A DNA stretch of 43,220 nucleotides from Akkermansiaceae bacterium (GTDB lineage: Bacteria > Verrucomicrobiota > Verrucomicrobiia > Verrucomicrobiales > Akkermansiaceae): the NCBI GenBank assembly GCA_903888515.1, contig CAISTY010000183.1:1-43220 (forward strand). The letters are read 5' to 3'. Below are positions 6,268-19,128 of this stretch, piece after piece. The position numbers and the translations under genes were made by a program. Every line of letters starts with the position of its first letter. The first letter of the stretch is position 1. Below the pieces are notes generated by a model. That model saw nothing but the letters and a program-made list of their open reading frames with translations. It was not told the origin of the DNA and did not search any database.

Positions 6268-6951
6268 TCAGACCTCCTCTTCAAGAATCTGACCATGCTC
6301 CTTCAGCCATGTCTTGGCCCTTTCAGTGGATGGAGCCTTGGCTCGCACGATGTTCCAGAAGCGCGGGGTGTGGTTGGCCTCCATCAGGTGCGCCAGTTCG
6401 TGTACGATCACGTAATCGATCACGAACATCGGCGCCTTGATCAGTCGCCAGTTGAAATTCACGTTGTCCTTCACCGTGCAGGAGCCCCAGCGGTAGCGGT
6501 TGTCCACGATTTTAGCATCGCCGAAATTCACACCCAATTCGCTGGCGTGACGCCTCACGCGGGGCAGGATGGTTTCCGTAGCACGATTGATATACCACTC
6601 CTTCAAGACCTTCCGTCGCTTCGCCTGTTGTGCCACCGGAATCAGGAACCGGCGTGAGAACTCGACCCCACCACTCGTGGTCTCCGTGATCTCGATGCGG
6701 TATTCCCGGCCAAGATAGGGAACGGACTCGCCGTTGACTACCTCCTTGCCGGGTGCATGGGGGCGGTCCTGATATTTTTGAGAATGATGCACCTTTTCGA
6801 ACAACCACTGCCGCTTGGAATCCACCACGCGGCGTATTGCCTCTTCCGGAGTGGCTTCCGGCGCATGAACGACAATCGTGCGGTCCCGCTCCACGGAGAT
6901 CGAGAGTTTCTTGCGCTTGGGCGATCGCAAAATCCGGTAGTGCAGGTCCAT
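6268..6951 (-). CDS. YgjP-like (DUF45/M48-type) metallopeptidase
   Basis: A 227-residue protein with the DUF45 signature: R-R-K-L-S-I-S-V-type N-terminal strands, R-Y-R-W-G-S-C at about 153-158, and the zinc-binding HELAH (184-188) with the third ligand His194 in N-H-T-P-R-F-W. Members are predicted zinc peptidases. They are often encoded directly downstream of hsdR in type I restriction operons, as here, but their role there is not settled. The start codon overlaps the hsdR stop by one base (TGATG), so it is translationally coupled to it. Full length for the family. Confidence 0.85.
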   Translation of the reverse strand: MDLHYRILRSPKRKKLSISVERDRTIVVHAPEATPEEAIRRVVDSKRQWLFEKVHHSQKYQDRPHAPGKEVVNGESVPYLGREYRIEITETTSGGVEFSRRFLIPVAQQAKRRKVLKEWYINRATETILPRVRRHASELGVNFGDAKIVDNRYRWGSCTVKDNVNFNWRLIKAPMFVIDYVIVHELAHLMEANHTPRFWNIVRAKAPSTERAKTWLKEHGQILEEEV

Positions 6952-9900
6952 CAGGCGGCGTAAAGAATGATGTCTTGATTGTTCTGGGCGATTTCCATCA
7001 AACGGCTGATGATGTGTTTGCGGTTCTTCACGAGTCCCGGAAGTTTCGCAAACTCCGGTTGGAGCAGGGTCTTTTGAAGGTCAGCGATCAGCTTGTTTCG
7101 CGCCGGGATGCTCTCCCAGAATCCGGTGAGTTTCAGCTCCCGCTCGATCTCGCCGTAGAGGTCCTGTGTCAATGCCACGAGATGGCTGATTCTCTCTTCC
7201 TCGTTCATCCCGTAGGGAGCAATGTCACGAGCCATCTTGGTTGGATTTCCATCGTTATCCAGGACCTCCGCAATCACGGGTGATTCCGCTGTCGCCGGCG
7301 CCTCGCCAAAAATCTCACGCCGCAACATCCGGAACAACGGCATCTGTTTCTTACGGTGCAAGCCGTAGGTCGGCTCCTTACCCGCATTCACAATGCGTTG
7401 GCGCAGCTTCTCCAACTCCTCGTAGATCTTTTTCCAGTTGTTGGCGAAGTCCTGGAAGATCTTCCTTAAGGCCTCGGCAAATGAAGCTTTAAGCTCTGGA
7501 TCATCATTCGGGTCCACGTCGAGATGGTGCCGGACCGCGTGTTCGATTTCGGCTGCTTTGGTTTTTGTTCGATCATGCTTTTTGACATCCTTTTGGAAAT
7601 CCTCATCGAGGATCGAGATCGGTTCCACCTTCACGTTGATGCCGCGCGACTCCAGAAAGGCATCGGTGATTTTGCGTAGCTTGGGCGGGATGCCTTTCAT
7701 GCTCAGCCTCCCATCGCGGAAATGTTTTTCCGCCAGCACATTGATTTCCACCAGCGATTGGTATTCCCCCATGTAGTCCAGCGCCTCTTTGGCGGGAAAG
7801 ACAAGGTTCAAGTTCTTGGTGAATTTCTTGAAGATTCCCATGAACTCGAAGCGCAGGTCCTCGTCATAGAACACGTCGAAGAACGCATCGTGATCGGTCA
7901 GGTCCGTGAGCTTGTGCTTTTTAAGCAACGAGATGATCGCGTCATGGCTGGCTTTCAGTTCCCGCAGTTCCTCCTCGGGGAAACTCAGCACATCCACCAC
8001 TTCTTTCTGCTCGCGCTCGTCATAGTTATCGAGCGCTTTTTTCAAGTGTTGGCCGATTCCGACATAGTCCACGACAAAGCCCTTGTCCTTCGCCTCGCCA
8101 CCGATCCGGTTCACCCGCGCAATGGCCTGGAGTAGACCGTGGGCGACGATGATCTTGTCCAGATACATGACCTGCTCCACGGGTGCGTCAAAGCCGGTCA
8201 GCAGCATGTTGTTCACGATCACAATGCCCACGTCGCCGCTCACTCCTTCGTCTTCTTTGTCAAATGGCAGCTTGAAGCTCTTGATCGTGGTCTCGTGCTT
8301 CGATCCGTTGGTGTAGGGCGTAAGATGCAACTCGTCGTTGTGATTGCCGGAAATCACCACGTCGCTCATGAGCTGTTTGAGGCTCGCAATATCCAACTTG
8401 AGCGGGTTTGCCTGTTCGAGCGCGGTGATGGCATTGGCGAGGGCGACATCGACATGTTTCTTGTAGCGCACGGCCGCCTCGCGGGATGTGGCCACGATCT
8501 GCGCCTTGTAACCGTTGGGGAATACATGGGTCAGGTAATGCGTCACCATGTCCTTGGCCTTGGCCTCAATCGTCGTCTCGGCTTCCAGATAGGCGGCCCG
8601 CGAGCCGTAGCCGAGAATCTCCATGCGCTTCTGGAGATTGTATTCGCTGAAAACATCCGCGAACCTCGCGTCCATCCCGGGCTTGTCCGGCACCTCGGCG
8701 TTGTGGGTGCGGCCTTCGTAAATAATTTCAAGCGTTACACCGTCGGCGATCGACTGACGCATTGTGTATTTGTCGATGTAGTCGCCGAAGACACGCTCCG
8801 TTTTGTCGATGGGAGTGCCGGTGTAACCAATGCGGGTGGCGAATGGGATACCCTTGTCCAGATTGGCCGCCAACCGCGAATACTGCGACCTATGCGCTTC
8901 GTCGGTCATCACCAGGATGTGCGGGCTGATGTTCAGCTCGGGAAATGTCTCCGACAGGTCCGTCTCGCGGAACTTGTGGATCATGGCCATCACCAAATCC
9001 GAGGCGTCGCTGACCAGCAATTCCTTGAGCCGCTTGATGCTGTCGGCGGGTTTGACGGTGAAGCCGATGCTCTGGCTGGTTTCCGCAAGCTGTTGTTCCA
9101 ATTGTGTGCGGTCGGTGACAAAGACCACCTTCCACTTTGAGAGCGACGGGTGGCGATACATCTCCCGCACCATGAACATCATGGTCAACGACTTGCCGGA
9201 CCCCTGGGTGTGCCAGATGATGCCGCTGCGTTCGCGCGGGTTCTTGCCTGCCAGCAGGCGCTTTACGGCCAACTTCACGGCGCGGAATTGCTGATAGCGC
9301 GCCACCACCTTGATCATCTCGCCCTTGCTGTTGGCGCTGAAGATGGTGAACGTGCGGATGAGATCCAACAGGTTGTCGCGGTCCAACATCCCGGCGACGA
9401 GACGCTGCTGGTCATTGGGGCTGCTGCTGCCGTGTTTCAGGTCATTGAGGGACCTCGGATAGGGATCCGCCCATCGGTAAAAGAGTTTTTCGGTGTGGGT
9501 CGTGATCGTGCCGAACTTCGCCTCCTGCCTGCACGTCGTGATCACGAACTGATTGTAGAAAAACAGCGGCGCACTGCCTTCGCCTTTGGCACCGCGCTGC
9601 TCGCTGTAGCGCAGCAGTTGATATATGGCTTCAGGAATGGGTTCCTTCACCTTGGGTGACTTGCACTCGATCACCACCACCGGCAAGCCATTGAGGAACA
9701 GCACGATGTCCGGGATGATGTGGTGCTCGGTTCCGAGAATGCGCACCTTGAACTGGCAAACGGCGACGAAGCGGTTGTTGTCCCGGTTCTTGAAATCAAT
9801 GAACTTAACTGACGGACTTTTCTCACCCGTCTGGCGGTTCTCGCTGACACTGGTGTTTTCCAACAACTGGTTGAACACATGCCGGTTGTTTTGCAGCAGG

Positions 9901-10169
9901 TTGGTGCTGGGAAAGTTGGCCGTGAGTTGCTTCACCACCTCATCCACCTGATCGTCTTCCAGCCACGGGTTGATCACCCTCAATTGCTCCCGCAGCACCG
10001 ACAGCATCACCACCTCGGTGAAATTGGTGCGGTGGCTGTCGCCGGGATGCTGCTTGGCGTCCAGGTCGAGAATCTCCCAGCCCAGGCCGGCGAGTTGATC
10101 GAGCAGCGGCTTCTCGACATGCTGCCGCTCGTCGAGGCGGATTTGCGCAGGAGTGTCCTTGGTGCTCAT
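6951..10169 (-). CDS. hsdR: Type I restriction enzyme, motor/nuclease subunit R
   Basis: A 1072-residue HsdR. The N-terminal PD-(D/E)xK nuclease has Asp154 (P-D-I-V-L) and Glu168-x-Lys170 (V-V-I-E-C-K-S). The translocase has Walker A HTQGSGKSLTM (about 320-330), DEAHRSQ (about 423), G-Y-T-G-T-P, and a second RecA domain with VNNMLLTGFDAP and Q-A-I-A-R-V-N-R-I. The C-terminus is helical and should contact the HsdM2S core. It cuts unmodified DNA after ATP-driven translocation. Its ATG overlaps the abiEii stop by four bases, and the nearest clear upstream operator is that of abiEi, so hsdR may be expressed with the AbiE pair, not with hsdM/hsdS. It appears intact. Confidence 0.95.
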   Translation of the reverse strand: MSTKDTPAQIRLDERQHVEKPLLDQLAGLGWEILDLDAKQHPGDSHRTNFTEVVMLSVLREQLRVINPWLEDDQVDEVVKQLTANFPSTNLLQNNRHVFNQLLENTSVSENRQTGEKSPSVKFIDFKNRDNNRFVAVCQFKVRILGTEHHIIPDIVLFLNGLPVVVIECKSPKVKEPIPEAIYQLLRYSEQRGAKGEGSAPLFFYNQFVITTCRQEAKFGTITTHTEKLFYRWADPYPRSLNDLKHGSSSPNDQQRLVAGMLDRDNLLDLIRTFTIFSANSKGEMIKVVARYQQFRAVKLAVKRLLAGKNPRERSGIIWHTQGSGKSLTMMFMVREMYRHPSLSKWKVVFVTDRTQLEQQLAETSQSIGFTVKPADSIKRLKELLVSDASDLVMAMIHKFRETDLSETFPELNISPHILVMTDEAHRSQYSRLAANLDKGIPFATRIGYTGTPIDKTERVFGDYIDKYTMRQSIADGVTLEIIYEGRTHNAEVPDKPGMDARFADVFSEYNLQKRMEILGYGSRAAYLEAETTIEAKAKDMVTHYLTHVFPNGYKAQIVATSREAAVRYKKHVDVALANAITALEQANPLKLDIASLKQLMSDVVISGNHNDELHLTPYTNGSKHETTIKSFKLPFDKEDEGVSGDVGIVIVNNMLLTGFDAPVEQVMYLDKIIVAHGLLQAIARVNRIGGEAKDKGFVVDYVGIGQHLKKALDNYDEREQKEVVDVLSFPEEELRELKASHDAIISLLKKHKLTDLTDHDAFFDVFYDEDLRFEFMGIFKKFTKNLNLVFPAKEALDYMGEYQSLVEINVLAEKHFRDGRLSMKGIPPKLRKITDAFLESRGINVKVEPISILDEDFQKDVKKHDRTKTKAAEIEHAVRHHLDVDPNDDPELKASFAEALRKIFQDFANNWKKIYEELEKLRQRIVNAGKEPTYGLHRKKQMPLFRMLRREIFGEAPATAESPVIAEVLDNDGNPTKMARDIAPYGMNEEERISHLVALTQDLYGEIERELKLTGFWESIPARNKLIADLQKTLLQPEFAKLPGLVKNRKHIISRLMEIAQNNQDIILYAA

Positions 10170-10945
10170 GAGGGTATGTCAGGGCTCGTTGATAGATTGT
10201 AAAAACCGCGCAACTCGTCGAACACTTCGGACAAAGTGATACGGGAAATACCCAGGGATTTCAGATCCGGCGGGTCTTGGGCGATGAGCGAAAAAGCAAC
10301 GGTCAGATCTTGTTGCAGGCTGGCGGGCAACGTGATCTTGGCATCCCGGTCCAGCACGGTGAACAGCCGGAATATATCGTTCTTGTGCTTGCGGATGCTC
10401 TTGGAGTCCACCGCTTCCCCTGCTGCCTTTCGGTTGGATAGATCGACGTAGGCCCGCGCCTTCAGCGGAATAAGGCCGTCCGCCTTGACCAGGGATAGCC
10501 CGTCAATCGTGGTCCGCCCCGCCATCACAAAGTTGTAGTAGTCGTCATTCATCAGAATGGCGGAGAGACTGGATATTTCTTCGTCCACCGGGATGGGGGT
10601 GATGTAGGCATCCGCCTTGAGATCGAGGGCGTCCGGCACCCGGGCGAACAACTCAAGCATCTCCGGGAATCCTTCATTCTGGGGACCATGGAACCGGTAA
10701 AACAGCCGCTTGCCAGTGCTTTTCTGGCGGTTTTCATAGGCCCCCAACCGGATGAACTCCCAGAAAGCTTCCGCAAATTCCCGATCAAGGGATTCGACAC
10801 AAAGCACCAAGTCCAAATCCTTGGTGGCCCTGAACTCGCCCCCCAGTTCCTCCATGCTGAGGCTGGAGGCGGTGCCACCGATCAGGACATAGCGGTCCGA
10901 GTAACCCGCAAAGTGCTCTTTGAAGCGGTCGAGTCCCTTTACCAT
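10166..10945 (-). CDS. abiEii: AbiEii-type nucleotidyltransferase toxin
   Basis: A 259-residue DNA polymerase beta-like nucleotidyltransferase. Near the N-terminus it has YVLIGGTASSLSM, then F-R-A-T-K-D-L-D-L-V-L, that is the G-G-T and R-x-T-x-D-[IL]-D motifs with the two metal-binding Asp residues. Later K-A-D-G-L-I-P-L-K-A-R-A-Y supplies the Lys/Arg pattern expected for NTP binding. AbiEii/MenT toxins transfer nucleotides to tRNA or related targets and cause abortive infection or dormancy. It overlaps abiEi upstream by seven bases and hsdR downstream by four. It is shorter than many AbiEii proteins, but the catalytic core is present. Confidence 0.8.
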   Translation of the reverse strand: MVKGLDRFKEHFAGYSDRYVLIGGTASSLSMEELGGEFRATKDLDLVLCVESLDREFAEAFWEFIRLGAYENRQKSTGKRLFYRFHGPQNEGFPEMLELFARVPDALDLKADAYITPIPVDEEISSLSAILMNDDYYNFVMAGRTTIDGLSLVKADGLIPLKARAYVDLSNRKAAGEAVDSKSIRKHKNDIFRLFTVLDRDAKITLPASLQQDLTVAFSLIAQDPPDLKSLGISRITLSEVFDELRGFYNLSTSPDIPS

Positions 10946-11931
10946 GGCACACCTCCCAGCAAGTTATCGATGGAGATCTCCACGCGCTCGTCCTTGATGT
11001 CTGACAAACTCAGCGCCAGAGAAAGCCGGTCCACCAGCGGTTTCTCTGCCAGGAGGCGCGGGTCATAGTGCCAGATTTCGAATTCCGCATGAGCCATGTC
11101 CTTGGAGACGCTGGGGATGAGGTGTAGGCCTGGTTCTTTTTGGATTTTTTTCCATTCCTCGCTGGTGATGGCCCATATGGCGTGTGGCGGGACAGCAAGC
11201 ATCGTCAGTTCCTCCAGCGCGGATTCCCCGGCTTTGAAATCACAGCCTAGAAACCATTCGTCCACGTAAATGCGCTTCTTCACCGGGGAACGCAAAACGG
11301 GGCGGACTTTTTCCCAAAGTTCACGACCGGTCACGAGGAAGTGGTGCTTGGCAAAGCGCCGCTCACCCTGGCACTCCACCAGCTCCAGCTGGCGCAGTTC
11401 GTCCAGTGCCCGGGTCATCGTCATTTTGGTGTAGCCGAATTGCTCGGCCAGCCCGGCCCCGGTGAACTCGGACTGCGGGTCCATCCGCCGAAGCAGGCAT
11501 GCCAGCACCACGACTTGCCCGGCCGGTGAGATTTTGAAACTCGCCCTACGCGGTGTCCTGAACTGCTCGCGCAGGTCCAGTCCGAGGTCCGGCAGGTAGA
11601 GTTGCTGGCCCGGCGCGAGAAACGGGATTTTACTCTCAATCAGCCGCTTGCGCTCATAGGCACCGACCGTTTCGAGCACGAAGAGGCTGCGCAGTCCGGT
11701 TTTCTGGTGCAGCCAGTCCGAATGTTTCGCCATCGCCGCCGGAGTCGGGCCAGCATCGCGTGCCAGCAAGGCCAGGAATTCCTTGCCCGACAGCGCGCAT
11801 TGGCCGATTTCGTAGGCTTCCGTGATATGGAGCGGTAGCCGGCGCAGGTCAGGAAATGGTGAAAACACGGCCTCAATTCCGAGAATTTCCCGGAGGTAGG
11901 AGGTGGCTTTGGCCTGTAAATTCGCGTTCAT
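10939..11931 (-). CDS. abiEi: AbiEi-type antitoxin and repressor
   Basis: The start is placed at the ATG at 11929-11931 (MNANLQAKATSYLREILG), giving 330 residues; the frame stays open 12 codons further upstream, into the operator. The central region AGLAEQFGYTKMTMTRALDEL (about residues 155-180) is a winged-helix recognition element. The C-terminal half has the AbiEi-like L-V-x-G-R-E-L-W and A-I-W-A-I-T-S-E-E-W blocks. AbiEi proteins counter the AbiEii toxin and repress their own promoter by binding paired inverted repeats. Four such half-sites lie directly upstream (11939-12000). It heads a chain abiEi-abiEii-hsdR-DUF45 with only overlapping junctions. Confidence 0.72.
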   Translation of the reverse strand: MNANLQAKATSYLREILGIEAVFSPFPDLRRLPLHITEAYEIGQCALSGKEFLALLARDAGPTPAAMAKHSDWLHQKTGLRSLFVLETVGAYERKRLIESKIPFLAPGQQLYLPDLGLDLREQFRTPRRASFKISPAGQVVVLACLLRRMDPQSEFTGAGLAEQFGYTKMTMTRALDELRQLELVECQGERRFAKHHFLVTGRELWEKVRPVLRSPVKKRIYVDEWFLGCDFKAGESALEELTMLAVPPHAIWAITSEEWKKIQKEPGLHLIPSVSKDMAHAEFEIWHYDPRLLAEKPLVDRLSLALSLSDIKDERVEISIDNLLGGVPW

Positions 11932-11938
11932 GACGGGA

Positions 11939-12000
11939 AAGTAACACGGAATCCGGCTAAGTAACAAGGACAGAGTTACTTGAAAGAATCAGGGTTACTA
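11939..12000 (-). promoter_or_regulatory. AbiEi operator: four AAGTAAC-type half-sites
   Basis: The central part is a perfect inverted repeat AAGTAAC (11959-11965) / GTTACTT (11975-11981) spanning 23 bp. Each half has an outer partner in the same orientation: AAGTAAC at 11939-11945 (20 bp away) and GTTACTA at 11994-12000 (19 bp away). The half-sites are thus arranged head-head/tail-tail, each about two helical turns from the next. AbiEi is known to repress its operon through two inverted repeats upstream. The array ends eight bases before the abiEi ATG. Confidence 0.7.
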
Positions 12001-12169
12001 TGAGGCATTTTATTCCGATTTTCAGACTGCCGCCCGCGGAATTGGCAAAGGCGGCCAACGTCCGCAAATTCGCATCCAGGCTCCAGCCCTCCTTGTATTC
12101 GATGCGCTCGCCTTCCACCTGCCGCTGGCGGAGGAGGTTTTCGAGGTTGATGGGGAGCTTGGTGGTCAT
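11957..12169 (-). pseudogene. AlbA_2-domain ATP-binding protein, N-terminal stub
   Basis: From the ATG at 12167-12169 the frame reads MTTKLPINLENLLRQRQVEG, then E-R-I-E-Y-K-E-G-W and L-A-A-F-A-N-S-A-G-G-S-L-K-I-G-I. This is the start of an AlbA_2 (Schlafen-like) domain: E-x-I-E-[FY]-K, A-F-A-N, G-G. After the glycine motif the sequence diverges and stops at 11957, inside the abiE operator. The remaining 350 or more residues are absent, so the abiE unit seems to have replaced the body of this gene. Confidence 0.65.
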
Positions 12170-12174
12170 GGATG

Positions 12175-12654
12175 TCAGTCCCAAAGGTATTTCTCATCCC
12201 ACGTCTCGCCATGCTTTTTCAGCATGGTGCGGAGTTCGTCTTGAAACGTCATTTTGCGATGATGTTCGATCTGATGGTCGATGTAAGCGCTAACAACATC
12301 CAGATTGGAAACGCTGACGGAAAAGCAGCCGTAGCCACTTTGCCAGGAGAACTCCGACAATGGCGCGGCGGGTCCGCCAGGCGGTGGCGCGGGTTGTTCT
12401 TTTACCCAGAGATTGGAAGCGCGTTTCATCTCCTTAATCCAATCTGCCTGAGTGATGGTGCGCCCGAGTCGCGCGAGAATGTGAACATGATCCTCCACAC
12501 CGCCGATGCGCAGCGGGGCACATTCCAGTTTCTTGGAAATGCCGCCCATGTAGGCATGCAGCGAGGTGCGCAAATCGAGATCGCGCAAAAACGGGCGGCG
12601 TTCCTTGGTTGAGAAAACGGCATGCAAATAAACGGCTGAGAGGGATTGTGGCAT
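12175..12654 (-). CDS. REP-associated tyrosine transposase (RAYT, IS200-like Y1 family)
   Basis: A 159-residue HUH single-strand transposase: SAVYLHAVFSTKERRPFL at the N-terminus, VEDHVHILARL with the HxH metal site, I-K-E-M-K-R-A-S-N-L-W, then Y-G-C-F-S-V-S and SAYIDHQIEHHRKMTFQDEL with the catalytic Tyr. RAYTs are domesticated IS200/IS605 relatives that nick REP hairpins and help spread them. Two REP-like arrays begin about 40 bp upstream and continue on the far side of hsdS, so the gene and its presumed substrates are adjacent. It looks complete and intact. It lies between hsdS and the AlbA_2 stub, on the same strand. Confidence 0.88.
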   Translation of the reverse strand: MPQSLSAVYLHAVFSTKERRPFLRDLDLRTSLHAYMGGISKKLECAPLRIGGVEDHVHILARLGRTITQADWIKEMKRASNLWVKEQPAPPPGGPAAPLSEFSWQSGYGCFSVSVSNLDVVSAYIDHQIEHHRKMTFQDELRTMLKKHGETWDEKYLWD

Positions 12655-12694
12655 CGTGTTAGTTTTTTAATGGCGAACCGACCATGAATCCAAT

Positions 12695-13185
12695 AGCCCA
12701 ACGGGCTTACGTCCTCCAGCCCAGGGTTGGCCGAATGCAATGAGGCCTACCCTGGGATTGGGGGGTGCCGACGTATCGAACCGCAACGCGGTTCCGTCCG
12801 GTGGGGTGGATCGGGCGACGTTCGGGACGCAACTCCGTTGGGGTTGGGATGCGTGGCGGGACGGTGCCCCAGGGTAGCGCGTGCCGCGCAACCCTGGGCT
12901 GAAGGGCGGAACGCCGTTGGCGTTGAAGAGATGCAAATCTAACGCGCCATGATTCATATCCCACCGGGATATCGCCCTCCAGCCCAGGGTTGGCCGAATG
13001 CAATGAGGCCTACCCTGGGGGGCGTGGCGGGAAAAATCGAACCGCAATGCGGTTCCGTCCGGTGGGGTGGATCGGGCAACATTCGGGGCGCAACCGCGTT
13101 GCGGTTGGGTGGTTTGGTGGGACCCTGCCCCAGGGTAGCGCGTGCCGCGCAACCCCGGGCTCAAGGATGGAACGCCGTTGGCGTT
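12695..13185 (+). repeat. REP/BIME-like palindrome array 1
   Basis: Two tandem modules. Hairpin type I (12720-12756; 12983-13019) has arms CCCAGGGT/ACCCTGGG, a T-T mismatch, GGCC/GGCC and an 11-nt loop. Hairpin type II (12868-12898; 13129-13159) has the same outer arms, an A-A mismatch, GCGCG/CGCGC and loop TGC. The feet are inverted: CTCCAG before type I; CTGAAG or CTCAAG after type II, where array 2 has CTGGAG. Between them are mini-palindromes with 3-nt loops: AGCCC-AAC-GGGCT (12695-12707), AACGCC-GTT-GGCGTT (12910-12924; 13171-13185), ATATCCC-ACC-GGGATAT (12956-12972), AACCGC-AAT-GCGGTT (13040-13054) and CAACCGC-GTT-GCGGTTG (13091-13107). The last palindrome touches the hsdS stop codon. 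Confidence 0.9.
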
Positions 13186-14465
13186 CATGCGGGCACCTCC
13201 GTATTGTCGAGCAAGTCCGTGACTCGCTTCCGACCGGTCAGCAAATCTTGCATCATGGCGGTCTTGAGGGCTCGGAGTTTTGGCAACGAGTGTCGGGTGC
13301 TGCTCAATGTTGCGTTCATTTTTGCTACTTCCGAGGCGATGGCGTCCATTTCCGTCTGTTCTCTTGGAACCGGGACCGATGGTGTCAGAATTTCCGACTT
13401 CGAAAGATGCGGTATGTCCATGCCCTTCTGCTGGATAAGAAGCTCCCGTTGATATGCGGGAGATTGGATCAACAGTTGCATGAATTTTTTCGGAACCGTC
13501 ATCGGCACAAATCGCCCTACTCGCTGAACCAAAAGACAAGGGACGTCATCATCAGTGAGTAGAGTCACCTTAAAGCCCTGTTTTGTAAATGTTCGGTCCA
13601 TTCCTATAATCATGTCGCCTGGCGCTAGCGCATAATCCTTGTGTGATTCGGACGCCTCATGCGACAAGCATCGAGTATCCTTCCAATCTGCCTTGCCAGT
13701 TCCTACATTTTCACCGCGCAGTAGTTTGACACCTTCCTCGACAAACCAAGAACTTTTGAACGCATAGCCAACCTGAAGATCGACGACGGATGAAAGTGGT
13801 TTCACCTCCCACTCCACCGGGATCCTGCCCAGCGGGGAGTCCTTGAATTCGTGGGTTTCTTCGGAGCGGAGGTTGCCGTGTGGGTCGATGCCGCGGGTGA
13901 GGAGGTCCTGCATCAGGCCGGTCTTGAGGTGCTGCTGCTTGTCGATCAGGGTCTCTGTCTGTTCAATCGCCCGGTCCACCGTCGAGAGAATCTCGGCGAT
14001 TTTGGTTTGTTCGGGTTTGGAGGGCGATTCGATTTCAAAGCTCAACAATTGTTCAATGCTTATACCCTTTACCGTTGACCCAATAGAAAGATTTTCAATT
14101 CGATGCCGAATCGCGTCCAGGGCCCATACCACATAGTCTGTGTCAAACTCCTCACGAATATAGAGCGCCCGTAAATCCTGATTGATCGCAACCGGAACAT
14201 TTGCTCGCGCAATCCGACCCACAGCCATGCGGGTACAAATGATGGGGGTCCCAGAAGGAATGAGATGCGAGGCACTTCGTTTGAGGCCTTTTTCGCTGAT
14301 CTGTTCTTTGGTTTTTGTCAGGCGATAAATTCCATCTTTGAAATCCTTGACCGACGCCCACGGTATGCCGCCATTCCAAAGATCTGGATTATCCCTCTCG
14401 GGAGTTCCACCACCCGTCGTTTTGAGAACGACGCTGGATAAAGGCACCCTGATAACCGCACTCAT
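13185..14465 (-). CDS. hsdS: Type I restriction-modification specificity subunit S
   Basis: Starting at the ATG at 14463-14465 (MSAVIRVPLSSVV), the protein has 426 residues. It has the normal HsdS layout. TRD1 is residues 1-165 (TTGGGTPERDNPDLWNGGIP and W-A-S-V-K-D-F). A central conserved helix follows (PEQTKIAEILSTVDRAIEQT, then L-I-D-K-Q-Q-H-L-K-T-G-L-M-Q-D-L-L-T-R-G-I). TRD2 runs from about 215 (G-R-I-P-V-E-W-E-V-K), then a C-terminal helix repeats the central one (L-P-K-L-R-A-L-K-T-A-M-M-Q-D-L-L-T-G). It defines the DNA sequence methylated by HsdM and cut by HsdR. It is separated from hsdM by a DUF1016 gene, a KilA-N fragment and a palindrome array, and both its ends border such arrays. 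Confidence 0.93.
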   Translation of the reverse strand: MSAVIRVPLSSVVLKTTGGGTPERDNPDLWNGGIPWASVKDFKDGIYRLTKTKEQISEKGLKRSASHLIPSGTPIICTRMAVGRIARANVPVAINQDLRALYIREEFDTDYVVWALDAIRHRIENLSIGSTVKGISIEQLLSFEIESPSKPEQTKIAEILSTVDRAIEQTETLIDKQQHLKTGLMQDLLTRGIDPHGNLRSEETHEFKDSPLGRIPVEWEVKPLSSVVDLQVGYAFKSSWFVEEGVKLLRGENVGTGKADWKDTRCLSHEASESHKDYALAPGDMIIGMDRTFTKQGFKVTLLTDDDVPCLLVQRVGRFVPMTVPKKFMQLLIQSPAYQRELLIQQKGMDIPHLSKSEILTPSVPVPREQTEMDAIASEVAKMNATLSSTRHSLPKLRALKTAMMQDLLTGRKRVTDLLDNTEVPA

Positions 14466-14565
14466 CTCAAACACTCCAATCCGGTTAGAATTCCATAGAG
14501 CGTGTGTGTGGTTAGGTTGCGTTCGGTTATCACCGATGCAGCCATCATATATTGCCGTGAATTTG

Positions 14566-14941
14566 CAGAACGCCAATGGCGTTCTGCCCTCCAGCCCAGG
14601 GTTGGCCGAATGCAATGAGGCCTACCCTGGGGGGCGTGGCGGGAAAATGCGAACCGCAATGCGGTTCCGCCCGTGGGGACGGATCGCATATCGTTAGGGG
14701 CGCAACCCCGGTGGGGTTGGATGGCGTTGGGGGACGTTCTCCCAGGGTAGCGCGTGCCGCGCAACCCTGGGCTGGAGGGCACAACGCCGTTGGCGTTGAA
14801 GAGATGCAAATCTAACGCGTCATCATTCATATCCCAACGGGATATTGCCCTCCAGCCCAGGGTTGGCCGAATGGAATGAGGCCTACCCTGGGGGCCTGAC
14901 GACCGCAACCCTGGGCTGGAGGACGGAACGCCGTTGGCGTT
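14566..14941 (+). repeat. REP/BIME-like palindrome array 2
   Basis: Same architecture and orientation as array 1. It opens with a strong palindrome with arms CAGAACGCC and loop AAT (14566-14586), then type I hairpin (14595-14631), AACCGC-AAT-GCGGTT (within 14651-14667), CAACCCC-GGT-GGGGTTG (14703-14719), type II hairpin (14741-14771, followed by CTGGAG), AACGCC-GTT-GGCGTT (14783-14797), ATATCCC-AAC-GGGATAT (14829-14845), type I (14856-14892, loop with one change) and a truncated type II right arm. It closes with AACGCC-GTT-GGCGTT (14927-14941). It separates hsdS from the truncated KilA-N frame. Confidence 0.9.
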
Positions 14942-14953
14942 GAAAGGATGCGC

Positions 14954-15073
14954 ATTCAACCCGGCCTGACTTTTAATTGTGGCGAATCCGCCATAATTAA
15001 AATCAGGGTTGTGCACGGATTCCCAAATGCCAAGAAACTCCGCGGTGTTCTTGATGGAGTGATCAGATTTCAC
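14954..15073 (-). pseudogene. KilA-N-type domain fragment
   Basis: GTG at 15071-15073 is preceded by GGAGGTGACCG, an excellent ribosome-binding site, and overlaps the end of the DUF1016 gene by 11 bases. The frame gives about 40 residues: I-K-N-T-A-E-F-L-G-I-W-E-S-V, H-N-P-D-F-N-Y-G-G-F and A-T-I-K-S-Q-A-G-L-N. The N-P-D-F-N-x-x-x-F-x-x-I-x-x-x-A-G pattern matches the middle of KilA-N domains, which occur next to type I restriction genes. After the AGLN the frame runs into palindrome array 2 and loses similarity. The array evidently replaced the C-terminal part. Confidence 0.6.
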
Positions 15074-16256
15074 CGGTCACCTCCTTGCGTTTTTGGTCGA
15101 GGAATTGTTGGAGAGTGTCCTTGCTCGGGAGTTCCAACTGGTATTTGGAGACGAAGAGGCGCTGGTTCATGGCGGAGAGCGCGTATTCGACGAGGGCGTG
15201 GTCCTTGCCGGTGCAGAGCAGGAGGCCGACGGGCGGGTTGTCGCCCTCGCGCATCATGTTCTTCTTAAACCAGGCGACGTAGGTGTTGAGCTGGCCGATG
15301 TGTTCGTGGCGGAATTCATCCACTTTAAGCTCGACGAGGACATGGCAGCGAAGGATGCGGTGATAGAAGACAAGGTCCACGAAGCCGCGGGTGTCGCCGA
15401 TGACGATGCATTTCTGGCGGGCTTCGAGGCAGAAGCCGTGGCCGAGTTCGAGCAGGAAGTCCTGGAGGTTTTCTAGCAGGGCTTGTTCGAGATCGGACTC
15501 CGCCACGGCCTCGCGTGGTTTCAGGCCGAGGAACTCGAAGATGTAGGGATCGCGGATGCTCAACCTCGGCTCGGCGTGTTCCACCCCTTGGTTTGCCATC
15601 GCGGAGAGCTTGTCCTTGTCCAGCGACAGGCCTGAGCGCTCGAAGTAGAGCGAGGCGATCTGGCGCTTGAGCGCGCGGACCGACCAGTTGCCGCGGATGC
15701 ATTCGATTTCGTAGAAAGCACGCTTGAGCGGGTCGTCGAGGGCGAGGAGTTGTTCGAAGTGGGTGTAGGAGAGGCAGGAGATGAGCTTTTCGCCAGGCAA
15801 TTCGAATTGTGCGGTCACTGTCCGCACTATTGGATTCGCAGCGGAGGCATCACTTGATTTTCCGGCCGCCACGTTGGGAGATTCGGCGGCTTCCCACGAG
15901 GCGGGAAGCAGTTGCACGAATGGTGCGGGCAGTGAACGCACAATCTGAGGGTATGCTCGATAGAAGGCCAAATACTGGTAGAGTTGGCGCCGGCCGGCGT
16001 TGCTCACGTTCAAATCCCGCAAGCGGTTGGAGAGCACCGCAAAAAGGCGGTCGCCATAGTCGGCCCTGTCAGCTCCATGCAGTTCGTATTCCGCAATGTA
16101 GGCTCCAATGACCCAATTGCGCAGCGTGAGGCTGGTGTTTACCGCACGCTTTGCGATTGCCGCGCTATGGTCGTGGACCCGGCGGATGGCCTCGACCAGG
16201 GCGGCGAAGTCCAGCGAGGCGGCGGGCGTTCTTGGTATGGCGGGTTTACGCGGCAT
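15063..16256 (-). CDS. DUF1016 (YhcG-like) PD-(D/E)xK nuclease
   Basis: A 397-residue protein. The N-terminal DUF1016_N domain contains NTSLTLRNWVIGAYIAEYEL, then Y-G-D-R-L-F-A-V-L-S and the R-R-Q-L-Y-Q-Y-L-A-F-Y block. The C-terminal nuclease has F-L-G-L-K-P-R-E-A-V-A-E-S-D-L-E, G-F-C-L-E-A-R-Q-K, D-L-V-F-Y-H-R and V-L-V-E-L-K-V-D-E-F-R-H-E, with Asp and Glu-x-Lys of the PD-(D/E)xK site visible. Family members occur in type I restriction loci and other mobile or defence contexts; the biochemical role is uncertain. It starts 12 bases after the hsdM stop with AAAGGA in front of the ATG, so it is co-transcribed with hsdM. Confidence 0.88.
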   Translation of the reverse strand: MPRKPAIPRTPAASLDFAALVEAIRRVHDHSAAIAKRAVNTSLTLRNWVIGAYIAEYELHGADRADYGDRLFAVLSNRLRDLNVSNAGRRQLYQYLAFYRAYPQIVRSLPAPFVQLLPASWEAAESPNVAAGKSSDASAANPIVRTVTAQFELPGEKLISCLSYTHFEQLLALDDPLKRAFYEIECIRGNWSVRALKRQIASLYFERSGLSLDKDKLSAMANQGVEHAEPRLSIRDPYIFEFLGLKPREAVAESDLEQALLENLQDFLLELGHGFCLEARQKCIVIGDTRGFVDLVFYHRILRCHVLVELKVDEFRHEHIGQLNTYVAWFKKNMMREGDNPPVGLLLCTGKDHALVEYALSAMNQRLFVSKYQLELPSKDTLQQFLDQKRKEVTGEI

Positions 16257-16268
16257 GGGAAAATCCTT

Positions 16269-19043
16269 TCATTTCAAATACCCCAATCCGGTGAGGAACC
16301 CATCGAGCACCTGGAGGGTTGCTGTGCGTTCGGTTTCCAGAGCGCGGCTGGAGACGGCGTATTTGTCCCAGAGGTTTTCGAGCAACTGGATCAATTGGCG
16401 TTTGGCGGCATTGAGGTAGCGGTTGAGTTCGTGGCTGGCGAGGTCGTGGAGTTTGGTTAGGATGAGGGTTTTGGCTTCCTCGTCCGTGAGTTTGCCACCG
16501 GTTTGGGCGAACAGGTGATCTGTTTTTGTTAGGCGGGCGGTGAGGGCGGCGTGGTCCTTTTGCAGGGCGGCGAGGTGTTTTTTGGCGGACTTTGGCAGAT
16601 TTTGTGCCGCCCCTTCAGGGCTCGATGCGATTGATTCGTTAGACCCAGGGCGTTGCCCTGGGCTATCGTATTTCAGGCCGTTGGCCTGGAAGATGTCGGA
16701 GCCGGCGATTTCGGCGATGCGGGCGTTGACCTGCTGGAGAAGCTGCTGGTTTTCGGCCTTGAAGTCGGCGTCACCGAGGCGCTTGAGTTGGAGCTTGAGT
16801 TGGAGTTCATCGCTGAGAGTCTTCAACTCGGCCTTGCTCTCTTTGATGCGTTTTTCCAGATAGGTGATGGTCTTCTCTTGAGCGATCAGGGCTTTGAGTT
16901 CCTTCTTGGCGGACGCGGCACTGTTGTCCTTGAGATCGTCGATGAGTTCCTTGAGGGCGGCCTTGATGATGGTGGCGGTGATGGATTCGTCTTCCTCCGG
17001 TTCGTAGGCGGCGAGTTCCTGCCCGGCTTCCACGGCTTCGGCGAGTTCGCTCTGGGCCTCGCTGATGGAGGCTTCCAGCGCCTCGATGGCATCGGCCTCC
17101 GCCTGGAAGAACGCGGCTATCAGATAGTTATCCGGGATGAGCGTGTGATGCCAACCGGTGGAGATGATGGTTTTCAGGTCATAGCGGATCTGTTGCCACC
17201 AGTTTACGAACACGCCGGCACTCTGGAACTCGTCTAACACGCCGAGCGGGATGAATCGCGTCTTGAGGGTGGTGAGCAATTCCTGCCGGACTTCCGGCAT
17301 TTTCCGGCCCTCACGGAGTTGTGAGAAATCGTGGCGTGCAATCTCCCACCACGCTTGCAGGGCGTCGCGGTGGCGGGTGAGGGTGCGTTGGACGGAGGTT
17401 TCGGCCTCGATCAGCGGCTTGATGGCCGACTTGCGGTCGATGGCATCGACAAAGGCCAGATACCCCGCCCGCTCCGATCGGAACAGGGTGGCGATGTCCA
17501 AGCCGAATCTGCCACTGATCACCGATAACTGATCACTGATCACTTCCCTTTCCGGCACGCCGCCGATGAGGTGGGCCTGCACGTCCTCGGGCTCCGGGTC
17601 GGGCGTGTTGTCCACGTAGCGGCGGATGTTCAGGTTGAAGTCGTGTTTTTCCACGATCTCCTTTTTGGTCACGAGGCGGCTGTATTTCGGCAGCTCGCGC
17701 TTGTGGGTGAAGACGAAGTCGATTTTCTCGATGTCCTCGGGGCGGAGTTTGTTCTGGTTCTTGCCCTCGGCGAATTCGCGGTCGGCATTGATGAAGAGAA
17801 CATGGTCGCGCAAGGCGTCCGGTTTGTTCTTGTTGAGGACGATGACGCAGGCGGGAATGCCGGTGCCGTAGAATAGGCCGGGCGGCAGGCTGATGATGGC
17901 CTCGATCACGTCGTCATTGATGAACAACTCGCGGATGAGCTTTTCCTTGCCGCCACGGAACAACACGCCGTGTGGCATGATCGTGGCGGCCAGGCCATCG
18001 GCTTTCAGGCTGGCCAGCATGTGCTGGACGAACATGAGGTCGGCCTTTTTCCCGGTCTCCGGGCACCACTCACGGAAGCGGGAGGGAAACTTGAGGGTGG
18101 CGCGGCTGTAGTTCTGGGAGAACGGCGGATTGGCCAGCAGGCGGTCGAACTTGCGCGGGGCGCCGTTGTCCAAAATCAGCGGATCCTCCAGCGTGTCGCC
18201 ATTCTCGATGGTGAAGCGCGTGATGTTGTGGAGAATCATGTTCATCACGCAGATCGACCAGACGGTGCCGTTGGAGTCCTGGCCGAAGAGCGCGAGGTCG
18301 TTCGGATTCTGGCCCTGCTCCTCGACGTATTGGTGGCTCTGGATGAGGAACCCGCCGGAACCCATGGTGGGATCGTCCACCTCGTGGCCGGCCTGCGGTT
18401 TGACGATCTGGACTAACAAGCGGACCACCTCGCCGGGGGTGTAGAATTCGCCGCCCTTCTTGCCCGCGCTGTCGGCGAAGAACTTGATCAGGTATTCGTA
18501 TGCCGCGCCGAGCAGATCAGGGAACTCGAAGTTGTCATTCACCAGCACGAAGCCGGGCTGATTGAAGTGGTCCAGCAGGTCCTTCCATTTTTCATTAGGG
18601 ATCTTGGTCTTCCCTTTGACCGCGTTGAAGTCGATGTTGTTTTTCAGCACTCCGGCCAGCGCGTCGTTTTCATCCTCCACGGCGGCGATGGCCTTGTTGA
18701 GCATGCTGCCGATGTCGTGCTTGAGGTCCTTGAGGGCCGGGACCTGCTCGCCATTCTCATCCGTCCACGATTCATGCCAGCGGGCGCGGACCGGGACAAA
18801 GAATGTTTCGCCATAGGTGGCCTTGTCTTCGAGGAGTTCGGCCAGCAGTTCGGGGCTCAGGTGAGCGAAGTCTTTTTTGATGGCAGTCCGTTTCAGCTCG
18901 AACTCGTCGGACAGGCGCTTCAGGAAGAGCATTCCGAAGATGAATTCCTTGAACTCCGAAGCATCCATCTTACCGCGCAGGATGTCGGCGGACTTGAAGA
19001 GGAAGGATTCGAGCTGGGAAAGGGTGATTTTTTCGCGGGTCAT
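16269..19043 (-). CDS. hsdM: Type I DNA methyltransferase subunit M with long coiled-coil C-terminus
   Basis: The start is placed at the ATG at 19041-19043 ([20 protein letters not shown]), giving 924 residues against 480-550 for a plain HsdM. The N-terminal helical domain is followed by the N6-adenine methyltransferase core: [25 protein letters not shown] (AdoMet site) and N-P-P-F-S-Q-N-Y (catalytic motif IV). From about residue 505 on there are Glu/Lys/Leu-rich helices with coiled-coil character ([33 protein letters not shown]) up to the C-terminus. Two insert-like segments occur: a GATCAC-type repeat near residue 505 and palindromes near 785-800. It is first gene of the RM operon, behind a good promoter (19100-19128). 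Confidence 0.94.
16644..16688 (+). repeat. Two GTT-loop palindromes inside hsdM coding sequence
   Basis: CCCAGGGC-GTT-GCCCTGGG (16644-16662) and CAGGCC-GTT-GGCCTG (16674-16688) lie 12 bases apart within the hsdM reading frame. They have the same arm-GTT-arm design as the mini-palindromes of the two arrays, and the first shares the CCCAGGG arm of the large REP hairpins. They encode a Gly/Pro/Ser-rich insert ([13 protein letters not shown]) in an otherwise helical region and preserve the frame. Confidence 0.85.
17512..17543 (+). repeat. Short GATCAC tandem-like repeat inside hsdM
   Basis: CACTGATCAC, a spacer, then ACTGATCACTGATCAC gives three near copies of CTGATCAC in 32 bases. On the coding strand they produce [11 protein letters not shown] between the methyltransferase core and the coiled-coil part. 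A related sequence (ATCACAGACAACCGATCACC) lies at 19129-19148 in the leader region upstream of hsdM. This looks like a small inserted repeat. Confidence 0.55.
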
Positions 19044-19099
19044 GAGAATTGGAAAGTCGCAGGGGATAGGCACGCAACCTGTTATCCTGTCGCGTGGCA

Positions 19100-19128
19100 A
19101 TTAGATAGACGGCGTCTGGTTTTGGCAA
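19100..19128 (-). promoter_or_regulatory. Predicted sigma70-type promoter of hsdM
   Basis: On the minus strand TTGCCA (complement of 19123-19128) and TCTAAT (complement of 19100-19105) are 17 bases apart. The -10 lies 57 bases before the hsdM ATG at 19043. Both boxes differ from consensus at only one or two positions, which is the best match noticed near an operon start in this window. Confidence 0.6.

Follow-up and report, generated by a model that had tools for sequence, protein, structure and literature searches.

Palindrome arrays around hsdS as probable gene-less copies of RAYT element ends, in a RAYT family recurrent in type I restriction operons

The window (the whole 43,220-nt stretch of Akkermansiaceae DNA analysed here) carries a type I restriction operon encoded on the minus strand. 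hsdM (16269–19100; N6_Mtase, 1.8e-98; HsdM_N, 4.6e-26) and the specificity subunit gene hsdS (13185–14465; about 426 aa; Methylase_S, 3.2e-22; start inferred from sequence as the likely ATG at 14465) are separated by a DUF1016/YhcG PDDEXK nuclease gene (15063–16256; PF06250, 1.7e-53), and hsdR lies at 6951–10169 (TIGR00348, 5.5e-144). A RAYT-like Y1/HUH transposase gene occupies 12175–12654 on the same strand. Directly downstream of it, at 11968–12172, is the remnant of an SLFN_AlbA_2 gene, and two adjoining operon genes (10166–11967; 259 and 342 aa) gave no Pfam or NCBIfam match; judged by eye, they may encode an AbiE-like pair of nucleotidyltransferase and regulator. A DUF1016 gene is also present 3′ of hsdM and RAYT in another locus (L233, 7727–8758). 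The original prediction had placed hsdS exactly between two arrays of palindromes, and this holds: the first array spans 12695–13186 and the second 14565–14941, within a few bases of the predicted limits, and the outermost mini-palindrome of the first (13170–13186) overlaps the hsdS stop.

Two other loci were compared with the window operon. In L275, from another family of the order, HsdM and HsdR are 81% and 82% identical to those of the window and HsdS is 39% identical; hsdM and hsdS are adjacent there, and neither RAYT nor hairpins are present. In L104, RAYT (86–87% identical), an intact SLFN_AlbA_2 gene (515-aa ORF, 654–2198) and HsdR (86%) follow the order of the window. The RAYT insertion is therefore common to the window and L104 and absent from L275.

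The RAYT protein has 159 aa, matches PF01797 (1.1e-18) and contains the HUH motif DHVHIL and a catalytic tyrosine in AYIDHQ. H56, H58, Y124 and Q128 are invariant in an alignment of 25 relatives, so that the HUH motif and single catalytic tyrosine expected of Y1_Tnp are both present. An AlphaFold2 model (mean pLDDT 87) matched the TnpA proteins of IS608 and ISDra2 in Foldseek (best E 5.8e-8, with IS608), as well as the Escherichia coli RAYT 4er8 (E 3.1e-4, rmsd 3.0), and the predicted Y1/HUH RAYT is thus borne out by domain and by fold. The residue four positions after the tyrosine is Gln in this family (YxxxQ); it is described as Gln in IS200 TnpA and Asn in the E. coli RAYT (PMC6006769). The NCBIfam IS200 score of 47.4 lies below the cut-off of 55. 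Relatives are about 150–159 aa long and end in YVWD, with PF01797 as the sole domain matched. dN/dS is approximately 0.05–0.07 in two pairs of restriction-linked RAYT genes, including 0.05 for the window and L104, a pair with saturated dS. The window gene has an intact reading frame, and purifying selection acts on its relatives. Four further PF01797 matches in the same genome (L014, L018, L022 and L025) cover the HUH half of the profile only, in frames of 365–387 aa, and appear to be a different Y1-like family.

Both arrays are made of two kinds of unit, each with a large hairpin and mini-palindromes, and every complete unit is compared here with the corresponding end of a relative described below (L075). 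Array 1 begins with unit I copy 1 on the plus strand (12695–12794; pal1 12695–12707, type I hairpin 12720–12756, pal2 12778–12794; 91/103 positions identical to the RAYT 3′-side end), followed by unit II copy 1 on the minus strand (12815–12924; a degenerate pal2′, type II hairpin 12868–12898, pal1′ 12910–12924; 99/118 identical to the 5′-side end). Unit I copy 2 (12956–13055, plus; pal1 12956–12972, hairpin 12983–13019, pal2 13039–13055; 95/113) and unit II copy 2 (13091–13186, minus; pal2′ 13091–13107, hairpin 13129–13159 with one C-for-T change, then the pal1′ at the hsdS stop; 87/106) complete it. Array 2 contains unit I copy 3 (14565–14667, plus; pal1 14565–14587, hairpin 14595–14631, pal2 14651–14667; 93/113), unit II copy 3 (14703–14798, minus; pal2′ 14703–14719, hairpin 14741–14771, pal1′ 14782–14798; 95/112) and a collapsed pair (14829–14941, plus), in which pal1 (14829–14845) and a type I hairpin (14856–14892) are followed by a deletion and then by the 3′ half of a type II unit with its pal1′ (14927–14941). 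The module is thus a forward unit I plus a reversed unit II, recurring at a spacing of about 261 bp in the manner of REPINs and BIMEs, as the predicted head-to-head arrangement implied. Array 1 holds two complete pairs and array 2 one complete and one collapsed pair. The claim that both arrays contain the same pieces in the same order therefore stands for the shared parts and for array 1, but not for the second unit of array 2, where the order is incomplete because an internal deletion took the inner mini-palindromes and half of the type II hairpin.

Seven large hairpins are intact, four of type I (starting at 12720, 12983, 14595 and 14856) and three of type II (12868, 13129 and 14741). Each consists of an 8-bp CCCAGGGT outer stem, a fixed mismatch (T-T in type I, A-A in type II) and an inner stem, and alternates with mini-palindromes that have stems of 5–10 bp and 3-nt loops; the mismatches and loops are as first described. 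Single-strand DNA folds of the units gave z of −3.8 to −4.8 relative to shuffles. Of the 17 perfect palindromes (stem ≥7, loop 3) in the 43-kb window, 10 fall within the 0.9 kb of the arrays, a density beyond chance. The longest exact direct match between the arrays is 62 bp, and a stretch of 245 bp is 87% identical. No Rfam match was found within the window, and a plasmid collection gave no match to the array. A 203-aa ORF running across array 2 (14462–15073) has no family match and was taken as spurious.

The nature of the units becomes clear from L075, whose RAYT protein is 81% identical to that of the window. A type I unit adjoins the transposase stop in L075 and a type II unit adjoins its start, and the closest window copies agree with these ends at 84–88% of positions (at most 91/103 for type I and 99/118 for type II). 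Type I thus represents the RAYT 3′-side end and type II the 5′-side end of a single element. The hairpins had been proposed as cognate to the RAYT, and the flanks of relatives and the distribution of hairpins with RAYT presence agree with this; the ends of L075, however, show that they are not two independent dispersed REP types.

The same architecture recurs across many genomes of the genus and order as an ordered unit of mini-palindrome (loop AAC), about 10 nt, large hairpin, about 20–30 nt and mini-palindrome (loop AAC), in which stem sequences vary while order and polarity remain constant. Inverted composite ends scoring above the shuffled maximum were found on both sides of 113 out of 136 distinct RAYT genes, mostly from Verrucomicrobiota and Planctomycetota (77/99 in an earlier scoring). 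Mini-palindromes occur beside RAYT genes at 0.98 and 1.07 per 150 bp compared with 0.023 in controls, a roughly 45-fold enrichment after subtraction of 2,475 N-run artefacts (NNN loops) from the control count, and their loops read AAC upstream and the complement GTT downstream. Inner-stem pairs were changed on both sides in 19 cells against a shuffled mean of 10.0, and the covariation score was reached by no shuffle; the outer arms of the large hairpins are fixed by the search pattern and were hence excluded from this evidence. Other members of the family have perfect CCCAGGGTTC-loop hairpins. In the subfamily of L042/L235, the RAYT is next to hsdS and hsdR and has different palindromes (GCCCAGGGCATCGCCCTGGGT, CGCCGTTGGCGCT and CCTAGGGCGTTGCCCTAGG) densely arrayed on its flanks.

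Dispersed units in two genomes (G022 and G033) retain the last RAYT codons (HGQSWDEEYVWD-stop), which makes the gene-less copies internal-deletion derivatives. The window pairs likewise have the appearance of a RAYT element minus its gene, REPIN- or MITE-like and tandemly repeated. The window RAYT gene has no proper pair of ends of its own, with an end-pair score of 21 against a shuffled maximum of 23, and units adjoin it at its 5′ side only. Lacking recognisable ends, it is therefore probably immobile, and its tie to the arrays accordingly rests on its relatives.

Copies are few in this genome. A strict hairpin pattern matched seven times, six of them at the locus and one at C231:82987, and blastn of the genome returned the same two places, so a dispersed REP family was rejected here; other genomes contain up to 23 such units. 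Among 59 relatives, the strict pattern was present in 19/41 genomes with this RAYT and 1/18 without it (Fisher p = 0.0017), the sole RAYT-less match being a non-palindromic chance match. A similar density in genomes devoid of any RAYT, which would have spoken against the original prediction, was thus not seen. Restriction-embedded RAYTs retained ends in 14/19 cases and others in 66/76, and the idea that the former lose their ends more often was dropped because the difference is not significant (p = 0.17).

Beyond what had been predicted, this RAYT family resides repeatedly within type I restriction operons. Counting identical proteins once, we found 20 RAYT loci with hsdM, hsdS or hsdR within 3 kb. 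Gene orders include hsdM-RAYT-hsdS (L232, L279, L283), hsdS-RAYT-hsdM (L172, L181), an hsdM-hsdS fusion followed by RAYT (L138, L222, L280) and hsdM-hsdS-RAYT-hsdR (L281, L282), and these differing positions argue for separate insertions. The fused frames (L138:7695–9980, L222:4964–6973, L280:4820–7081) have a co-directional RAYT almost immediately 3′. L184 has hsdM- and hsdR-like genes with a GmrSD_C protein instead of a recognised hsdS. By inspection, the RAYT lies on the hsd strand in all 20 loci. RAYTs showed no overall co-orientation with their neighbours (31 same and 27 opposite upstream, 24 same and 36 opposite downstream).

On the RAYT tree, the hsd label changes about 10 times, compared with 18.4 when shuffled, and at least five changes are forced by well-supported branches. 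hsd genes occurred within 3 kb in 7 of 60 order-level RAYT neighbourhoods, picked by protein similarity and contig position only, and in 0 of 20 random regions of the same genomes; L279–L282, fetched for their already known hsd proximity, are outside the 60. In an order-wide scan, at least eight RAYTs besides that of the window lay no more than about 2.2 kb from an hsdS, among the matches listed, against a chance expectation of 0.2–0.5 estimated from those matches (Poisson p ~1e-7 at the higher figure); the genomes are drafts and the fold-change is approximate. A gene-level control for type I proteins agrees weakly with this enrichment (about 7/100 near neighbours, about 1/82 far ones). Type I restriction operons have been colonised by this RAYT family several times independently, and our literature search found no paper linking RAYTs with such operons.

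We consider it very probable that the arrays are tandem, gene-less, REPIN- or MITE-like copies of a RAYT element, reduced to its two ends in a head-to-head arrangement and processed by its HUH protein, and that the family is a recurrent resident of type I operons. Anatomy, identity of the ends, linkage to RAYT and recurrence are shown here. RAYTs of E. coli and other bacteria cut and rejoin single-stranded REP hairpins (PMC8266576). By analogy with the biochemistry of RAYTs and IS200/IS605, the HUH protein would most likely recognise the folded end (mini-palindrome, about 10 nt, large CCCAGGG hairpin, about 20–30 nt, mini-palindrome) on single-stranded DNA and cut and rejoin there, and from the same analogy we infer cleavage and mobilisation in trans, by which the ends may have spread and multiplied. 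The operon preference, whose cause we also infer, would most likely reflect the value of a type I restriction operon as a favourable, horizontally moving carrier for the RAYT.

The simplest account of this residence is hitch-hiking on mobile operons; a contribution to hsdS turnover or to regulation would be of greater interest. That family RAYTs have been recruited repeatedly as working members of type I operons, nicking at hairpins by hsdS to promote its turnover or to regulate the operon, seems improbable to us. The association might instead merely reflect mobile, defence-rich accessory regions that collect any transposase, which is possible if somewhat doubtful: RAYTs, like hsd genes, are part of the accessory genome, and the operon moves between families, with HsdM proteins elsewhere in the order about 81–87% identical along the aligned portion. 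Nevertheless, the RAYTs are not simply close to hsdM, hsdS and hsdR but sit between these genes, always on the same strand, and PADLOC on RAYT neighbours matched methyltransferase and specificity models of restriction systems most commonly. Quite improbable, in our estimate, is that the arrays are a recombination device in which RAYT nicking, or RecA acting on direct repeats, deletes or exchanges hsdS and changes restriction specificity. hsdS does sit exactly between direct repeats with a 62-bp exact identity, RAYTs adjoin hsdS or hsdM in many operons, and HsdS differs from its L275 counterpart far more than HsdM and HsdR do. HsdS diverges rapidly across type I systems, however, so its divergence is not diagnostic and by itself is no demonstration of exchange through the arrays.

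The inversion of hsdS that had been envisaged is not supported by the arrays, which are direct repeats with exact inverted matches of at most 20 bp; this orientation predicts deletion or exchange but not inversion. Moreover, a single Methylase_S gene was present among the window proteins scanned, with no second or silent hsdS, and in most RAYT-bearing operons examined the ends occur singly about the RAYT, and hsdS is not bracketed by paired arrays. Switching of hsdS through the arrays is thus possible but unsupported. It is also unlikely that the palindromes act mainly in RNA, processing, stabilising or attenuating the hsd transcript, with the RAYT incidental. In favour of this, the units form stable hairpins between the genes of a single operon whose members all run in one direction, and for canonical REPs a function in transcription termination and mRNA stabilisation has been hypothesised (PMC3733652). 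However, RAYT genes of different phyla are bounded by inverted copies of these units whatever the operon context, and some units carry transposase coding remnants (G022, G033), so that a mobile-DNA origin is required even if a function in RNA was gained afterwards.

As probable gene-less RAYT element ends, the arrays bring a clear anatomy of ordered three-palindrome ends to a widespread, little-described RAYT group of PVC bacteria. How the gene-less copies arise can be read from their joined ends, which in some cases still include the final codons of the transposase. Type I restriction operons are associated repeatedly, and in a fixed orientation, with an enzyme predicted to nick single-stranded DNA. 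This association offers a testable route to the old question of how RAYTs serve their hosts and what maintains them, as well as a possible contributor to turnover of restriction specificity.

IS200/IS605 elements have no terminal inverted repeats and carry different subterminal hairpins at their two ends, whereas in most relatives of this family one end is an inverted copy of the other. Phase-variable or shuffling hsdS loci (PMC7394358) share with the window the repeats around a type I specificity gene beside a DNA-processing enzyme, but they have duplicated, recombining hsdS genes. The window operon was rejected as such a locus, having neither several hsdS genes nor inverted repeats within hsdS: one hsdS is present, and the direct-repeat arrays lie outside it.

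The closest parallels are among RAYT systems. REPtrons, in which TnpA_REP/RAYT is found with REPs, REPINs and BIMEs (PMC3733652, PMC3116915, PMC8266576), share the Y1/HUH protein, cognate imperfect palindromes, head-to-head pairs, gene-less copies and, in the window's large hairpin, a GTAG/CTAC step beside the fixed mismatch. Here, however, each end is a composite of three palindromes of about 100 bp that forms the inverted ends of the gene, copy number is very low and the Y-motif is YxxxQ rather than carrying Asn. An assignment to canonical GTAG REPs was rejected, as GTAG/CTAC lies inside the outer stem with its T-T or A-A mismatch, not in an unpaired foot, and is absent from other members, and as many dispersed intergenic copies are lacking.

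TIRYT/TIRtron elements share RAYT-like genes within long TIRs, some of them self-complementary or double palindromic, and moderately abundant solo copies (PMC3733652); TIR-bounded RAYT-like genes and double-palindromic TIRs were thus already known from that description. Relatives of the window gene are bounded by long TIRs in this way, and the window copy is not intact in this respect. As far as the TIRYT description goes (PMC3733652), it does not include three ordered palindromes per end with cross-phylum order and loop polarity, nor residence in type I operons. Most published TIRYTs belong to subclass 2.1 with a C-terminal HTH extension, which this family, ending in YVWD, does not have. Class 3 TnpA_Y1 is described by a profile of about 155 aa with N-terminal conservation and a class-1-like Y-motif with Gln, and is reported with a CnGA foot (PMC6006769). 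A constant CnGA foot was not recognised by eye in the flanks of relatives, and the family alignment shows the length, N-terminal conservation and Gln Y-motif of that profile. Compared by its published description, class 3 TnpA_Y1 is probably this RAYT family.
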